Below the pieces are notes generated by a model that saw only the letters and a list, made by a program, of their open reading frames with translations, did no database searches and was not told the DNA's origin. From positions 248,001 through 312,000 of the forward strand of contig NZ_JAGQEE010000007.1 in the NCBI RefSeq assembly GCF_018304945.1: 64,000 nt of DNA, read 5' to 3'. Positions 10,969-60,931 of this stretch are shown here, in pieces (the stretch's first letter is position 1; every line of letters starts with the position of its first letter). Source of the DNA: Collimonas humicola. Lineage in GTDB: Bacteria > Pseudomonadota > Gammaproteobacteria > Burkholderiales > Burkholderiaceae_D. A program made the translations under genes and the position numbers.

Positions 10969-11790
10969 ATGCCAGAACTTCCTGAAGTAGAAGTGACCCG
11001 CCGCGGCGTTGCGCCGCATCTGGATGGCCGTGTGGTCACCGCTGTCGTTTTTCGTCACAGCGGTTTGCGCTGGCCGTTTCCGCAAGACTTGCCGGCGCTG
11101 CTGGTGGGACGTCCCGTGCTGCGGGTCGAGCGCCGCGGCAAATACCTGCTGCTGCGTTTCGATCACGGCACGCTGCTGATCCACCTGGGGATGTCCGGCC
11201 ATCTGCGCATCCTGGAGCTCGGTACGGCGCCGCAAAAGCATGATCATTTCGACCTGGTGGTCGGCCAGCAGCTGTTGCGCCTGACCGATCCGCGCCGCTT
11301 CGGCGCCGTGCTATGGCATGCCGACGCCGACGGTCCGCTGGAGCAGCACCTGCTGCTGGCTGGGCTCGGGCTGGAGCCGCTGGAGCAGGTTTTTTCGGCG
11401 CAGATCCTGTATAAGGAGACGCGTAAGCGCAGCGCGCCGATCAAGCAAGTGCTGCTGGCGGGTGATATCGTGGTCGGGGTCGGCAATATCTATGCTTCCG
11501 AGAGCCTGTTCCGCGCCGGCATCAATCCGAAAACCCCGGCGCACCGCATCAGCCTGGCGCGCTATGAGTGGCTGGTTGATGCCATTCGGATAATTTTAGC
11601 GGCGGCGATTGAGAAGGGCGGAAGCACTTTGCGCGATTTTATTGGCGCCGATGGCCAATCCGGCTACTTCCAACAGAGTTATTTCGTCTATGATCGTGCT
11701 GGGTTGCCGTGCAGAAATTGCGGAGCGCTGATTTCGCAGATCAAGCAGGGGCAGCGGTCGACGTTTTATTGCAAGACGTGCCAGAAATGA
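10969..11790 (+). CDS. mutM: Formamidopyrimidine/8-oxoguanine DNA glycosylase
   Basis: A 273-residue bifunctional glycosylase/AP lyase removing 8-oxoG and FaPy lesions. After Met removal the catalytic Pro-Glu ([12 protein letters not shown]) is at the N-terminus. The C-terminus carries the CxxC...CxxC zinc finger (CRNCG...CKTCQK). It leads a plus-strand run with a dynamin-like gene and mutY, another enzyme of the 8-oxoG system. It diverges from the TPR gene across about 276 bases. Confidence 0.97.
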
Positions 11791-56656: not shown

Positions 56657-56732
56657 GCTGGCTTAGCTCATCTGGTAGAGCACCTGACTTGTAATCAGGG
56701 GGTGGCGGGTTCAAGTCCTGCAGCCAGCACCA
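56657..56732 (+). tRNA. tRNA-Thr (anticodon TGT)
   Basis: A 76-nt cloverleaf: acceptor GCTGGCT/AGCCAGC, discriminator A, encoded CCA. The anticodon stem-loop CCTGACTTGTAATCAGG shows TGT. Its 3' 47 nt are repeated at 60465-60512, marking it as the integration site of the adjoining element. Confidence 0.97.
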
Positions 56733-56738
56733 ATATCT

Positions 56739-56770
56739 AAAAGGCCCACCGTCTGGTGGGCCTTTTTCTT
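56739..56770 (+). terminator. Terminator of tRNA-Thr (island-proximal copy)
   Basis: A 10-bp stem AAGGCCCACC/GGTGGGCCTT with a GTCT loop and a T-run, starting 9 bases after CCA. Confidence 0.85.
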
Positions 56771-56784
56771 TTGTTCCGCAAAAA

Positions 56785-57174
56785 TCATTTTGTAGGCTTG
56801 ACTAGCTTACCCTGCGGTGTCGAACATAGTGTGCAGTCATTGTCGCGGTTGCGTGCCCTAGCTGGTCCTGTGCGGCAGAAATACCGTCAATTTCTTCTTT
56901 ATCGGTTCCCGCTTTCGCCCGTAAATCACGGAATTGGAATTCCTTTATTCCGGTTGCTAGTTCGGGGTGGGTATTGATGGCGACTTCCCTGGCGCGTGTA
57001 AATAAGCTGCGCAACGTGGTCGCGTTCATTGGGTACGCGCCCCAGCTGATGCGCCTCCTTGGCGTACTGCTGCATACGCTTGTTCGCGTCACCCAGCACA
57101 ACGGTCGGATCTGGACCGGTGAAACTGTATAGCTTGGCATGCACCTGATAGCGGGTTGATATCCACGTTGCCAA
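56785..57174 (-). pseudogene. Tyrosine-recombinase (integrase) C-terminal fragment, frameshifted
   Basis: The frame ending at 56802 reads FQFRDLRAKAGTDKEEIDG, then QLGHATATMTAHYVRHRRVS and stops. This holds the C-box His and the nucleophile Tyr of phage integrases. Adding one G in the final GGGTAAG would extend it to RRGKLVKPTK and a stop at 56785, the usual family ending. Upstream, coding resemblance shifts frames near 57040-57060. The N-terminal and core domains are missing, so it is inactive. Confidence 0.75.
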
Positions 57175-57224
57175 CTGCCAAGGAATGTTTTGTTGCGAGG
57201 TGGCGTACTACAGTGTCGGTCTGG

Positions 57225-57274
57225 AAAAAAGAACGCGGCGACGCGAGGAGTGTTTGTACACTATCCGCGTCGCC
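57225..57274 (-). terminator. Long imperfect hairpin with T-run, probable terminator of the cargo gene pair
   Basis: Arms of 17 bases (57237-57253 and 57258-57274) pair with three mismatches around a TTGT loop. On the minus strand the stem is followed by GCGTTCTTTTTT. It lies about 140 bases past the stop of the cargo gene. Confidence 0.55.
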
Positions 57275-57410
57275 GTACCAGCTGATGAGGCTGTAGACAA
57301 GACCAAACCTACGAGTCTAGTGCAGATCAGGCGAAGGCAATCATACTTGCGCTGTGTAAAACTCAATGCAGAAAATCCGTAAATCGCTCGATCGATTCAC
57401 ATTCGCAAAT

Positions 57411-58394
57411 CTAATTTGGCTTTAGAAAAGCATCCACGCTTTTGCTTTGGATCGCCGTCATAATTCGATCTCTATATTTCAACAAATCCTGAAAAGAAGA
57501 AGCGTTGTTGGCATACGTAGTGTTTTTATAAAAATCGGACAAATTATCAAAACACTGACCTTTTGTGACGCATTGAAGTTCAATGATTGAATTTGTTTGA
57601 TCGCATACCATTCCAAACGAGCATGAGGCCAATTCCCAAGCATCAGTCAGCGGTGAATTTGCGGAGTTTTGTGGATAAAAATGACCATCCAACCAATAAC
57701 CAACGCCACCTTCCGGAGTTTGATACGTTACGATTTCTCGACCGAAAACACTTATTACGCCGGGATCTTGCAAATTACTGATCTCTTTAAAAAATTGCTT
57801 TCTGGATTCCGACGAAATGTTGCGATCCGGGCCAGCGTTTCCAAGGATAAGAGCAAAAGAAATATCTACTGTACGTAAGATATCTTTATCGTCCCTCTCT
57901 CTCCTGACCAGTTCACTAATAGTATCTGTAGAAAAATCATTATCAGAAAATCCTTGGCATCGGATTTTTATACGGTTATAACTTGCAAGTCTTTTTCCGT
58001 AATTAATCGAATCTTCTTTTCCATCATTCCCTGGTTCTGGCAAATTACGCAATTCTCTGCATAAATTGAGCGCACTTATTGCATAGCCGATGCCTCCTGC
58101 TTCTGGATGATTTTTTGCCGACTCCGCGAAGGCGTGTAGATCAGTGCTGGCATAAAAAGCTTTTGCCATTGCGACGGTGGGCTTTTCGTTTGATTTACCT
58201 GTTTGGCCAGCTAAAACCGTATTTTCTAATCTTGCCCCATCTTCCACTGAGCGTCCTACAGCCACGCTTTGATTCTGTATTGACTGTTGCCCATCTGCCG
58301 CATCTTGACCCTTTGTGAAATGCCATGCATAACCGGCGATAGAAATGCCAATGACCAGAAAAATCAGCGCTTTGATCTTAATCGAATTTTTCAT
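57411..58394 (-). CDS. Membrane-anchored/exported protein of unknown function (prophage cargo)
   Basis: 327 residues from the ATG at 58394, which has GAGG just ahead and begins 11 bases after the previous gene. One N-terminal hydrophobic segment (ALIFLVIGISIAGYAWHF) is followed by a polar body with several cysteines (NLCREL, IRCQGF, ASCSFGMVCDQT, LQCVTKGQCF) suited to disulfides outside the cytoplasm. Base composition is clearly more AT-rich than the chromosome. No family recognised. It is probably co-transcribed with the upstream exported-protein gene. Confidence 0.75.
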   Translation of the reverse strand: MKNSIKIKALIFLVIGISIAGYAWHFTKGQDAADGQQSIQNQSVAVGRSVEDGARLENTVLAGQTGKSNEKPTVAMAKAFYASTDLHAFAESAKNHPEAGGIGYAISALNLCRELRNLPEPGNDGKEDSINYGKRLASYNRIKIRCQGFSDNDFSTDTISELVRRERDDKDILRTVDISFALILGNAGPDRNISSESRKQFFKEISNLQDPGVISVFGREIVTYQTPEGGVGYWLDGHFYPQNSANSPLTDAWELASCSFGMVCDQTNSIIELQCVTKGQCFDNLSDFYKNTTYANNASSFQDLLKYRDRIMTAIQSKSVDAFLKPN

Positions 58395-58405
58395 ATAACC
58401 TCTAA

Positions 58406-58984
58406 TTAACCGTAATTGGGACAATCCGGACTCGGTTTAGCGACTCCATCGCCGCCATAGAATCCCGTATTGGAACCCGGTATAACGGAAATGCTGCCTA
58501 TTGCTGGATTTGCCGTCCACCATTCCCAGCCACCATCTGCATAGGCGACCTTAAACACGTATTGCCTTTTTGGATTGAAATACCCAAATAGGGCGCTGCC
58601 AATTCTCGCTGCAGGACCTTCTTTTACATTCCACATTGCTTTGAGTTGATTGGCGACAGCCCATCGCTCATCTTGGCTTGATCTTGACGTTACATTTCTC
58701 ATTTCTTGGGGCAAATCTGGATTGCATCGTATGTCACTATTCTTGCTTTGCTTTTTTTGCTCGGCAATTAGGTCGGACGGACTGCCTGGAGTTCCACCTC
58801 CTCCATCTCCACCCCCTGCAGAAGGGCCATCAGGGTCGCCATAATATGGGCCTGATGGGCGGTCGGGTCTAGGCGCAGTAATGATGACGGTATCAATTGC
58901 ACTGGCTGAGCTTCCATAAAATAAGCTAATTATTAAAGAGAATATTATCCTGCGTCCAAAAGGACATTTAGCTAAATGGTTCAC
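58406..58984 (-). CDS. Exported protein of unknown function with Gly/Pro-rich segment (prophage cargo)
   Basis: 192 residues. A signal peptide (IIFSLIISLFYGSSASA) is followed by VIITAPRPDRPSGP and a Gly/Pro/Asp-rich linker, then a folded-looking C-terminal domain (SSQDERWAVANQLKAMWNVK, FKVAYADGGWEWW). Composition is AT-rich. I recognise no family. It forms a two-gene unit with the membrane-anchored gene 11 bases downstream; both products should sit in the envelope. Confidence 0.72.
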   Translation of the reverse strand: MNHLAKCPFGRRIIFSLIISLFYGSSASAIDTVIITAPRPDRPSGPYYGDPDGPSAGGGDGGGGTPGSPSDLIAEQKKQSKNSDIRCNPDLPQEMRNVTSRSSQDERWAVANQLKAMWNVKEGPAARIGSALFGYFNPKRQYVFKVAYADGGWEWWTANPAIGSISVIPGSNTGFYGGDGVAKPSPDCPNYG

Positions 58985-59271
58985 ACAATCCTTTTCTGTT
59001 AGTTAAAGACTTATCGCAACAGTACCGAGGTCGATATTTGCGGCTTCGCCTGTTCTGCAATTTATGGATCAAAGATCGAGCATGACTGCTCATATGTGTT
59101 GCCAATTAGAAATGAGAAAAGTGCCACTCTTTTTGTGAGATTTGTATTTATTTATTAAGATTTCATGAATATTTACGCCAGATATCGCGAAACTGGATGA
59201 AACGTCGATTGTCGTCACGCTTATCGGCAATGACCTACGAACTAAGAATTTGACCTGGCGATGAAATTTTC
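58985..59271. other. AT-rich non-coding stretch within the prophage remnant
   Basis: 287 bases with no supportable ORF. It probably holds the promoter of the exported-protein pair. No repeat or RNA gene was identified. Confidence 0.5.
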
Positions 59272-59605
59272 TTAAAAAGGACTATTCAGATGTTTGAGTA
59301 AAGAATGCCGAATCACTGCGTGGTCAGTCACATTAAATTCAAGTAGTGCTCGAGTCGGGTAGTGATATGTCGCCTTTTTTTTGCAACCTTGTCGGTCAAT
59401 CCCTCCTGATGCACGCGGGCAATCCGCGCAACGCGCCCAAGGAAGCCGACTGAAAGCTGATTTTCGTCCTGCTCGATTTTGAGATTTTTTAGCGTGCGGT
59501 CTTCTCAAACATGGCGGCTTTCTGCCGTTTGATTCTCCCTTTCTTACCCCGTGGATTCTTGCGCTGCTTGCGCGCCGCATAGGGCGCGCCGTCCAGCGCC
59601 TGCAT
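59272..59605 (-). pseudogene. P2 gpS-like tail completion protein, decayed over three frames
   Basis: From an ATG at 59605 one frame reads MQALDGAPYAARKQRKNPRG...KAAMFEKTAR and stops. A second frame continues LSVGFLGRVARIARVHQEGL. A third ends YHYPTRALLEFNVTDHAVIR near 59280. In order these match the middle and end of P2-type gpS. The first ~50 residues are lost at the junction with R. Confidence 0.7.
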
Positions 59606-60041
59606 AGGCTTGCCAGAAATCAGCGGTATTTGCTGGTGTGGGTTGCGGCTCGGCCAGGTGCAACACTTCCAGCCGACCGGCGCCGGCTGGTTTCACTATC
59701 ACCCGCTCGGTCAGCGCCAGTGTGATCGGCAGGTCTACCGACGCGTGGTTGTTGTAATCCACATCAAAGCCGATGCCGGTCTTGCGCAGCTCGACATTGT
59801 CCAGCAGGTCGCGCTGGCGCACCTGCACCCAGGCCAGCAACGGGACCATGATGGCATCCTCGCTGCTAGCGTAGTCGGTGATGATGATGTTCAGCTTATA
59901 GCGATATTCAAACGACAGGGAAGCGGTGCCGGTCGCCACCGTGTTGCCACCCTCCGCAAAGACCAGCAGCTTGTCGGGGTTCTGCTGCAATTCAGCGCTG
60001 GCGGCTGTCAGATGTGCACTAAGGCTTTTTGGCTTGTACAC
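59544..60041 (-). CDS. P2 gpR-like tail completion protein, C-terminally altered
   Basis: 165 residues from a GTG at 60041 with CAGGAGGA upstream. The pattern KPKSLSAHLTAA, TASLSFEYRYKLNIIITDYA, MVPLLAWVQVRQRDLLDN and LPITLALTERVIV is that of P2 gpR, which caps the phage tail. After LAEPQPTPANTADFWQ the frame enters S-derived DNA in the wrong phase, so the natural C-terminus is gone. It is a relic in a defective prophage. Confidence 0.75.
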   Translation of the reverse strand: MYKPKSLSAHLTAASAELQQNPDKLLVFAEGGNTVATGTASLSFEYRYKLNIIITDYASSEDAIMVPLLAWVQVRQRDLLDNVELRKTGIGFDVDYNNHASVDLPITLALTERVIVKPAGAGRLEVLHLAEPQPTPANTADFWQAYAGAGRRALCGAQAAQESTG

Positions 60042-60230
60042 GTTCGGCGTCCTCCTGACAATCAGCAACGGCGCCCATCTGGGCCGCACAAATGCCCCGC
60101 GCAGCTTCTGCGCGCTCCAGGGCAAGCAACAACGCGCCGTTAGTTCTGGACGCCGTCGCCGGCAGTTTGCAGCGCATGATCGCTGGACAGGGGGTGACTG
60201 TCAGCGTCGGCGCCGGTGGCGGCTTGCAGC
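60019..60230 (-). pseudogene. LysC-like o-spanin fragment lacking its signal peptide
   Basis: In the frame one base ahead of lysB the sequence reads SCKPPPAPTLTVTPCPAIMR, then TNGALLLALERAEAARGICA and ends QAKKP at 60019. This is the mature part of P2-type LysC/Rz1 lipoproteins, nested in lysB as usual. The segment before SCK is basic and Pro-rich, not a signal peptide, so the start and lipobox appear lost. Confidence 0.65.
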
Positions 60231-60454
60231 TTGGCGGCGGCCTTCTTGTCCTTGGCCGCCGCGTCGGTCAAGGTCTTGATGGTGCCGTCGCGATCGCCTG
60301 TGATCTGTTTGGCGGTCTCGGCACGTTCCTTGGCAGCGGTCAGGCTATCCCGCTGGACATAAATCACCAGGCACAGCGCGTCAATTCCCAAGAGGGATAT
60401 CGAAATTATCGAATTGCGGAACTGAAAACTCGGTAAGTAATTGAAAGGAATCAA
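60140..60454 (-). pseudogene. LysB-like i-spanin, shortened
   Basis: 104 residues, with one hydrophobic helix (LLGIDALCLVIYV) and the coiled region QRDSLTAAKERAETAKQITG typical of LysB/Rz, ending TAGDGVQN. P2 LysB is about 140 residues; the missing stretch after KKAAAKLQA coincides with the loss of the nested lysC start. The N-terminus lies only 10 bases from the att repeat, so the original N-terminal end may also have been replaced. Confidence 0.65.
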
Positions 60455-60464
60455 TTTCCCGTTG

Positions 60465-60512
60465 GACTTGTAATCAGGGGGGTGGCGGGTTCAAGTCCTG
60501 CAGCCAGCACCA
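60465..60512 (-). repeat. attR: duplicated 3' half of tRNA-Thr
   Basis: 48 nt matching 56686-56732 (part of the anticodon stem, the T-arm, acceptor 3' strand and CCA) with one extra G in the G-run. Direct repeat, same orientation as the tRNA on the plus strand. Confidence 0.9.
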
Positions 60513-60518
60513 GAATTT

Positions 60519-60550
60519 AAAAGGCCCTCAGAAATGAGGGCCTTTTTCTT
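60519..60550 (+). terminator. Terminator beyond the att repeat (original tRNA-Thr terminator)
   Basis: A 10-bp stem AAGGCCCTCA/TGAGGGCCTT with a GAAA loop and a T-run, starting 9 bases after CCA, the same spacing as the copy at 56739. Confidence 0.85.
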
Positions 60551-60622: not shown

Positions 60623-60931
60623 CTAAAATGCCCATTTTCTGCCAAGCTCTTCAAGCCCGGCCCTCTTCAAGTCCTCTGGCGTCATGACCACTCTTAGCTC
60701 CACATTGGCATTGAAAGTCAGGAACCATGGCTCGGCAAGCATGGGGATTTTCGAAGGGTCATCGAGGCTGACGATCAGGAGGGCTGTTCGCTGCCCGTGC
60801 TGTTCGGTGAAATAGGCTGCCTCCGGTTTTAACTCATCCAGAATCTGGCCCATTTTCTTGCTGGCCGAGCCGTCCCTGATAGCTGCGTTGAATTCGGTAT
60901 TAGGAAATTTGACGTTCAATAGCATCCGCAC
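60623..60931 (-). CDS. Small conserved protein of unknown function
   Basis: 102 residues from a GTG at 60931 with AAGGAG six bases ahead; the ATG two codons in is poorly spaced. The pattern MLLNVKFPNTEFNAAIRDG, KPEAAYFTEQHGQRTALLIV, AEPWFLTFNANVELRVVMTP belongs to a family often seen in Proteobacteria, sometimes misnamed pantothenate synthetase. A small alpha/beta (ferredoxin-like) fold is likely. No function can be assigned. Confidence 0.75.
   Translation of the reverse strand: MRMLLNVKFPNTEFNAAIRDGSASKKMGQILDELKPEAAYFTEQHGQRTALLIVSLDDPSKIPMLAEPWFLTFNANVELRVVMTPEDLKRAGLEELGRKWAF

Follow-up and report, generated by a model that had tools for sequence, protein, structure and literature searches.

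Burkholderia phage KL3 (Peduoviridae, Kayeltresvirus), a complete phage of 40.5 kb, is reported (PMC3091744) to integrate at position 32 of a tRNA-Thr gene, and its sequence record starts with a tRNA-Thr 3' end. In KL3, the integrase gene int lies beside the attachment site (att) and a methyltransferase gene is found between genes S and V, where phage P2 carries orf30. Here, a stretch of 64,000 nucleotides (nt) of Collimonas humicola (GCF_018304945.1, NZ_JAGQEE010000007.1, 248,001-312,000, forward strand), hereafter the window, was analysed at a tRNA-Thr gene followed by a 3.8-kb element. This element is probably a KL3-type P2-like prophage which was cut down to its ends and to the cargo between S and V, which is of the cis-mobilizable type, and which lies in an integration hotspot. 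It resembles KL3 in gene order and strand, in the position of int beside att, in the accessory genes between S and V, and in integration near position 30-32 of tRNA-Thr (PMC3091744). It differs from KL3 in its size, in its unrelated cargo pair and, on visual inspection, in the sequences near att.

Tandem segments bounded by repeats of an RNA-gene 3' end are also known from cis-mobilizable elements (CIMEs) and from the ssrA islands of Dehalococcoides (PMC3146451). In the part of that paper concerned with these islands, 15 of them without an integration module were counted, and their mobilisation by other elements was hypothesised. As described there, they involve ssrA and the serine recombinase family, whereas the present locus involves tRNA-Thr and the tyrosine family and is phage-derived. 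Similarly, the excerpt of PMC10872708 on the additive flexible genomic islands of Methylophilaceae (tRNA-Lys end repeats) and on tycheposons describes variable segments beside tRNA genes with recurring tRNA-end repeats. Compared with the Methylophilaceae islands as presented there, the Collimonas repeats consist of about 48 nt plus a terminator, and arm motifs at fixed distances and recognisable P2 relics are present. Tandem islands at RNA genes without integrases are already in print (PMC3146451, PMC10872708); no description of the Collimonas tRNA-Thr locus was found in the open-access literature searched. Prophage decay is well known, and the window element is ordinary as a prophage remnant. 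Such a case is useful where the ends, the path of decay, the empty site and the prophages of relatives can be read side by side, and the surrounding hotspot is the more interesting part.

The genus set comprised 15 Collimonas genomes, namely that of the window (G000, the window being G000:C22:248001-312000) and 14 others (labelled G002-G014 etc.). Labels beginning with L designate extracted stretches (L041, L209, L263 and so on), and "region" positions are given in sspB orientation.

P2-like relics between two copies of the tRNA-Thr 3' half

The tRNA-Thr(TGT) gene comes after sspB in all 80 named loci kept from a search with the window SspB. From position 30 onwards, its 3' part is found again 3.8 kb downstream, and the similarity, which takes in a rho-independent terminator, covers 82 nt at 85% identity plus a 17-nt exact match. 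An earlier note on this DNA, made from its letters alone, had described this repeat as differing by one base. The repeat was confirmed, but the difference is an indel (an extra G), so that the repeat match splits into two families. On visual inspection the two terminators differ, the one on the tRNA side being of the island stem type and the distal one resembling those beside the host-side gene. In our judgement, a near-identical 48-nt copy of the tRNA 3' end with a second terminator behind it lies far outside what chance would produce. The 3' half of the complete tRNA-Thr was taken to be element-derived.

Between the two copies lie relics of seven P2-like genes (lysB, lysC, R, S, V, J and int), all on the minus strand and in KL3/P2 order (Table 1). 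Read from the distal end, they are lysB, lysC, R, S, the cargo, the start of V with a gpJ fragment, and the int C-terminus. Five of them (the int C-terminus, lysB, lysC, R and S, in P2 order) had already been named in the earlier note and were recovered by Pfam, PHROG and tblastn comparisons; that list was incomplete, since gpJ and the V start are also present. When 40 KL3 and 33 P2 proteins were used as queries (E <= 0.05), int, J, S, R and lysC gave credible matches to KL3 and/or P2 proteins, as the proposed kinship with P2-like phages would predict. The V start and lysB were identified via PHROGs and via the comparison with genome G006 presented below. Matches of KL3 gpI, the KL3 slot methyltransferase, P2 orf30 and P2 cox (E 9e-4 to 0.016 against 5.5 kb) were put down to chance. 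None of the KL3 and P2 queries gave a credible match to a replication, regulation or packaging gene in the element. The element is a remnant, as the intact replication, regulation, capsid and packaging genes of a live prophage are missing from it.

Table 1. Positions (counted from the first letter of the window) and basis of assignment of the features at the tRNA-Thr locus
Feature	Position	Strand	Basis or remark
tRNA-Thr(TGT), complete copy	56657..56732	+	Rfam tRNA 67.3 bits
att core copy 1, at tRNA	56686..56733	+	repeat begins at tRNA position 30
intrinsic terminator beside tRNA	56739..56766	+	stem type common in many Collimonas islands
left-arm motif TCCGCAA, putative integrase arm site	56775..56781	+	function inferred
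int C-terminal relic (KL3 Int residues 247-336)	56802..57107	-	Pfam Phage_integrase 3e-4 (below cut-off); PHROG integrase 2e-7
gpJ baseplate fragment (KL3 J residues 211-249), flanked by a deletion junction at either end	57037..57156	-	KL3 protein match, PHROGs
V gene start with upstream region, V-side edge of cargo slot	57141..57380	-	73% to G006 prophage L209:9203-9442
cargo gene 2, about 327 aa from ATG (337 from upstream TTG), open frame intact	57411..58394	-	
cargo gene 1, 192 aa, GTG start, open frame intact	58406..58984	-	
S (tail completion) relic, N-terminus lost, frameshifted	59284..59603	-	Phage_tail_S 0.057 (below cut-off); KL3 gpS tblastn 4e-9; 86% to G006 prophage
R (tail completion) relic, near full length, C-terminus gone	59598..60041	-	Pfam GpR E=9e-43 (above cut-off)
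lysC (Rz1-like spanin) relic	60019..60224	-	Pfam LysC 2.7e-6 (above cut-off)
lysB (Rz-like spanin) relic, internal deletion	60140..60400	-	PHROG Rz-like spanin 8e-4
right arm	60404..60464	+	conserved in unrelated Collimonas segments, upstream of their distal att copies
right-arm motif TTGCGGA	60414-60420 (-51 from core)	+	
att core copy 2, one extra G	60465..60512	+	repeat comparison
host-side terminator	60519..60546	+	repeat and empty-site comparison
first gene past the element	60623..60931	-	weak DUF3303 match below cut-off; adjoins tRNA-Thr in the G011 empty site

Among the matches listed, the genome closest to the window at the sspB end is G006 (97%). It contains a largely complete P2-like prophage (C1, about 3546.9-3576 kb) with int, A, ogr, a repressor and the D-to-Q run, the matches to A and T coming in pieces. 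The relics align with this prophage at 67-86% DNA identity (lysC-R 83%, lysB 78%, S 86%, V start with its upstream region 73%, int 67%), again in line with the earlier assignment to the P2 type. By means of this alignment, the cargo was placed in the slot between S and V, which has the same position in both elements and holds a D12 methyltransferase gene in the G006 prophage. The losses could likewise be mapped. Stretches are gone from the right end up to lysB, between V and J, and between J and int; in addition, about 130 nt are missing within lysB and about 175 nt spanning the R/S border. A 346-aa integrase of G006 is 71% identical to the int relic over 73 residues.

The R relic (444 nt) shows 8, 4 and 28 differences at codon positions 1, 2 and 3 from the R gene of a second G006 prophage locus (L263), and 15, 12 and 47 from that of the first G006 prophage; the third-position bias is equally strong against the R gene of G012. 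The decay of the prophage thus looks recent from these codon counts, this dating being qualitative only, since part of the R divergence arose on intact lineages.

When the window flanks were joined at the att repeat and compared with six relatives, a single match running across the join was obtained in G011 (1148 columns, 81%, 47 gap positions). There, one tRNA-Thr is followed by one terminator and then by the counterpart of the gene at 60623, which is the empty site that the earlier note had predicted. In G002, G009, G014 and G006 the match was interrupted at the join, and in G010 it ran only through the terminator. G006 does not have the window unit, and other segments stand in its place. 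The att core duplicated at the tRNA gene, together with the empty site of a relative, thus joins the late genes in conserved order in pointing to a P2-like remnant. An older unit may include the gene at 60623, in which case G011 would be empty of this insertion only. The third att copy of G006 also lies beyond the corresponding gene, and a weak att-like match is found 6.6 kb farther in G011. Such weaker matches (tRNA end and terminator, 77-80% over about 70 nt) were seen at G002 region 15923, G014 9501 and G011 L051 7204, and a mostly-terminator match was seen in G005. The downstream matches are perhaps the marks of older insertions.

Proposed origin of the element

According to the favoured explanation, a KL3-type P2-like temperate phage would have entered the 3' half of the Collimonas tRNA-Thr(TGT) gene. 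Integration by a tyrosine integrase is well established for such phages. Because attP carried the tRNA 3' half and the terminator, the tRNA gene would have stayed intact, and the displaced host half would mark the far end. A few large deletions would then have shrunk the prophage; as read from the relative's prophage, they removed the stretch from the right end up to lysB and those between V and J and between J and int. What was left over would be the two ends with one arm motif each, the S-V accessory cargo, and fragments of the neighbours of this cargo. Since a core and an arm motif are found at both ends, the unit would be of the cis-mobilizable type; as in a CIME, both attL and attR are present and the recombinase gene is broken. 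Excision in trans by a related integrase of that family is conceivable, another segment at this site offering indirect support at most, and the unit would be one of the reduced segments that pile up at the tRNA-Thr hotspot. An integron gene cassette is not expected here, as the repeats derive from tRNA 3' ends and the int relic is similar to the integrase of phage KL3.

The earlier idea of strong deletion around retained cargo is also supported, as the cargo lies between the S and V relics and a second example exists in G013. In the second tRNA-Thr segment of that genome, a Peptidase_C70 gene (AvrRpt2-like papain protease family; L041:9266-10063) is bracketed by S and V-start relics. Thus, in two Collimonas species, P2-like prophages at one tRNA gene have collapsed onto the S-V slot with different cargo. 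This opens two questions to testing, namely whether such cargo is retained by selection and whether segments that have arm motifs but no integrase still move. If they still move, dead prophages would be a source of small mobile gene cassettes.

The Collimonas tRNA-Thr hotspot

In order to tally att copies, G004 and G012, which end at the tRNA, were left out, and 13 readable genomes remained. Further att copies were found in six of them (the window, G002, G006, G007, G008 and G013), with 14 distal copies as counted; the weak matches in G002, G011 and G014 and that in G005 were set aside, and the tally becomes 8/13 when those of G011 and G014 are included. The second G007 copy is a BLAST match outside the stricter att scan. 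As reading beyond the tRNA extended over 5.5 kb in G007 and 20 kb in most others, the tally misses copies farther away. In addition, five of the 80 named loci, among them the G002 locus once more, have repeats within <=10 kb. The earlier reading as a P2-like remnant at tRNA-Thr stands, but the site is an integration hotspot and not the place of a single insertion.

Several segments contain ordinary genes, namely a glycosyltransferase gene, a LysR regulator with an MFS transporter (profile-tested), and an SDR gene with an AraC-type regulator (by eye). At the G002 locus (G002:C17, L048), five tRNA-Thr 3' copies stand within 7.4 kb (region positions 684, 2253, 3314, 6244 and 8036); the segments hold ordinary genes, and the sole integrase trace between the att copies is a C-terminal relic. 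That the other Collimonas tRNA-Thr islands are KL3-like prophages was rejected for the 36-kb element of G008, inside which no KL3 or P2 match was found, and for the small segments without P2 matches. In G008, a V fragment lies 2 kb past the last att copy.

Upstream of the distal att cores, two short motifs recur at fixed distances. With one mismatch in seven allowed, TTGCGGA is found at -51 (once at -49) in 12 of the 14 distal copies, and TCCGCAA at -111 (once at -109, once at -112) in 10. Counted as exact matches, the motifs are 24 times as dense around att copies as in the rest of these regions; this figure is based on copies of shared ancestry and is no significance test. Similar motifs were seen by eye beside int in elements with related integrases (own genome, C11, and G006). 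The window retains the -51 motif and the first left-arm motif.

Furthermore, a LysR-MFS segment with a truncated int was followed across genomes; the figures given for it are among the matches listed. It is shared at 94-97% identity by G002, G003, G013 and G006 (L041:714-3596, also in L048, L047 and L202). At tRNA-Thr it occupies the first slot in G013 and G003 and the third in G002; in G006 it lies elsewhere. Only the G002 and G013 copies are complete from att to att, the G003 copy being without the right att and the G006 copy without the left. Between G002 and G006, the host flank (about 2.1 kb) is 87.5% identical versus 96.6% for the segment, and between G013 and G003 the corresponding values are 97.4% and 93.8%. 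As these identities are discordant, the histories of segment and host differ. In G005 (94%) and in G321, a genome of another genus (93%), the inner part (query 195-2687) is present but the ends are missing, which suggests capture between arms. This history bears on the hotspot, not on the window's own unit. The extra att copies in 6/13 genomes, the arm-like motifs at fixed distances and an integrase-less segment with a history of its own go beyond what the earlier note had described.

Two copies of the tRNA-Thr 3' end stand apart from any tRNA-Thr gene, one beside the LysR-MFS segment at L202:9916 (G006:C1:245915, 49/49 nt) and the other at L205:6433 (G005:C1:3584432, about 80% over 95 nt).

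Alternative explanations

Several observations weigh against the favoured explanation. The window does not have the -111 motif, and its unit was seen nowhere else, which leaves its own mobility unsupported. The search of 13 Collimonas loci (read over 5.5 to 60 kb) revealed no KL3-like prophage at tRNA-Thr, and the G006 prophage adjoins another tRNA-like 3' end (by eye; ARAGORN calls no tRNA there), so that the tRNA-Thr specificity of the lineage is taken from KL3. Between the int relic and that prophage's integrase, identity is only 51% at the protein level (67% in DNA), compared with 78-86% in DNA for the lysB, R and S regions; int and the late genes may thus differ in history. Finally, no close homologue of the cargo was found with which selection on it could be measured.

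A first alternative departs from the favoured explanation in the mobility step alone. The prophage would have decayed in place as an immobile relic, and segments would be shared by homologous recombination across the att and arm repeats after DNA uptake, with no part played by an integrase. We consider this quite plausible, if on balance somewhat doubtful. There is no intact integrase at the locus, the repeats of about 80-250 nt (att, terminator and arms) could support homologous exchange, and, among the matches listed, only two of the four LysR-MFS copies extend from one att to the other. However, the -51 and -111 spacing is kept in 12 and 10 of the 14 distal copies in spite of diverged surroundings, which suggests that the motifs are binding sites under constraint or that activity was lost only recently. 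Moreover, the boundaries of the shared segment are the att repeats in G002 and G013. A wider role for integrases is tentative and, in our view, rather unlikely: the locus would be a cassette array fed by dying prophages and islands. The genes between the core with its terminator and the right arm (-51, -111) would form a non-autonomous cassette movable by related integrases between strains and species, with the window remnant and the LysR-MFS unit as examples.

In a second alternative, the int relic and right arm would come from an older, non-P2, integrase-less segment, into which a P2 late piece with its cargo recombined later. A related int relic and right arm do frame unrelated contents elsewhere, as in the LysR-MFS segment. 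Capture between arms seems to occur, judging from the inner part of that segment without its ends in G005 and another genus, and the closest relatives of the int relic and of the late genes differ. Nevertheless, the order int-J-V-[cargo]-S-R-lysC-lysB on one strand, as in KL3 and the G006 prophage, would have to arise by chance, and the int relic of the window exceeds that of the LysR-MFS segments in length and has gpJ as its immediate neighbour. This origin is therefore improbable.

A satellite parasitising P2, or an evolved minimal element, would account for the small size, conserved ends, cargo and several phage morphogenesis genes, but this very improbable reading is close to refuted, since S carries a frameshift, lysB, J, V and int survive only in truncated form, the search gave no credible match to genes for replication, regulation or packaging, and the fragments decayed differently in each relative.

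Cargo genes and contents of the S-V slot

The two cargo genes had been called foreign-looking, and their GC contents of 0.41 and 0.48 against 0.58 in the flanks agree with this. By eye, the smaller protein has a signal-peptide-like start, a Gly-rich linker and a conserved C-terminal part, and the larger one an N-terminal membrane anchor and conserved cysteines. No meaningful family was found for either in Pfam, PHROGs, NCBIfam or PADLOC, and no toxin or immunity domain was detected. Searches of phage records (E <= 0.1) and of viral contigs with the cargo proteins were negative, as was that of the genome-contig collection with the larger protein, the one queried there. A single-sequence fold of the larger protein had a mean pLDDT (predicted local distance difference test score) of 39.

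At E <= 0.001, the 192-aa gene is missing from all 14 other Collimonas genomes, and one of them has a short stretch related to the 337-aa gene. Homologues of both genes are adjacent in three genomes of another genus (G242, G250 and G270); the larger gene is present in tandem copies in two of the three, and the small gene of G250 is read in two frames. Including the window's own genome, the larger family occurs in 12 of 392 genomes of the bacterial family (eight of the other 11 in one genus) and in 7 of 399 genomes of the order. That this family is phage-specific was rejected: at the loci inspected it stands among chromosomal genes, several times as tandem copies. Larger-cargo homologues were seen in this way, as two or three tandem copies, in stretches L085, L087, L088 and L090 of another genus. 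The cargo forms a unit of two genes, one for a secreted-looking protein and one for a membrane-anchored-looking partner; as a best guess, and a weak one, it may be a toxin/immunity-like or envelope-protection pair. For a toxin/immunity pair, the tandem paralogues of the larger gene beside the small gene in another genus are only suggestive.

Across Collimonas, S is complete (at least 152 of 158 residues) and free of stops at nine loci, and V is nearby at each, three of these V genes containing one stop. The S-V distance at these loci is 1.5-5.9 kb; these figures and the slot contents are among the matches listed. Five slots hold a D12-type methyltransferase or a split form of it (profile-tested in G006 only, the others by eye), one an N4/N6-type methyltransferase, one a C5-type methyltransferase, and one an Imm51 gene. 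In G014 and G002, a short S tail stands beside a small gene, which is Imm51 in G014 and similar by eye in G002, where a methyltransferase relic also lies beside it.

Imm51-type genes were noted at L263:2566-3036 (prophage S-V slot), L049:2421-2837 (tRNA-Thr island) and L274:2194-2610 (third locus). The last 30-40 codons of P2 gene S also occur as isolated fragments (L099:9294-9377 and 11145-11233, L100:7562-7655, L263, L264, L265, L270 and L274). Among the matches listed, such tails are found in S-V slots and elsewhere, in this and other genomes, often beside small genes, and are possibly the scars of repeated cargo exchange.

In Rugamonas aquatica (L141, from 13272), homologues of KL3 gp51-gp48 (PAAR, VRR-NUC and two DUF3396) lie 2.7 kb past tRNA-Thr, with no other KL3 match in the stretch examined. 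In the genome of the window itself, at about 960.2-1047.6 kb of C11 (L207, L203), a tRNA-Leu(TAA) gene and a tRNA-like 3' end lie 87 kb apart, the latter next to an integrase of 356 aa that is accompanied by similar arm motifs; these two sites may be the ends of one large island.

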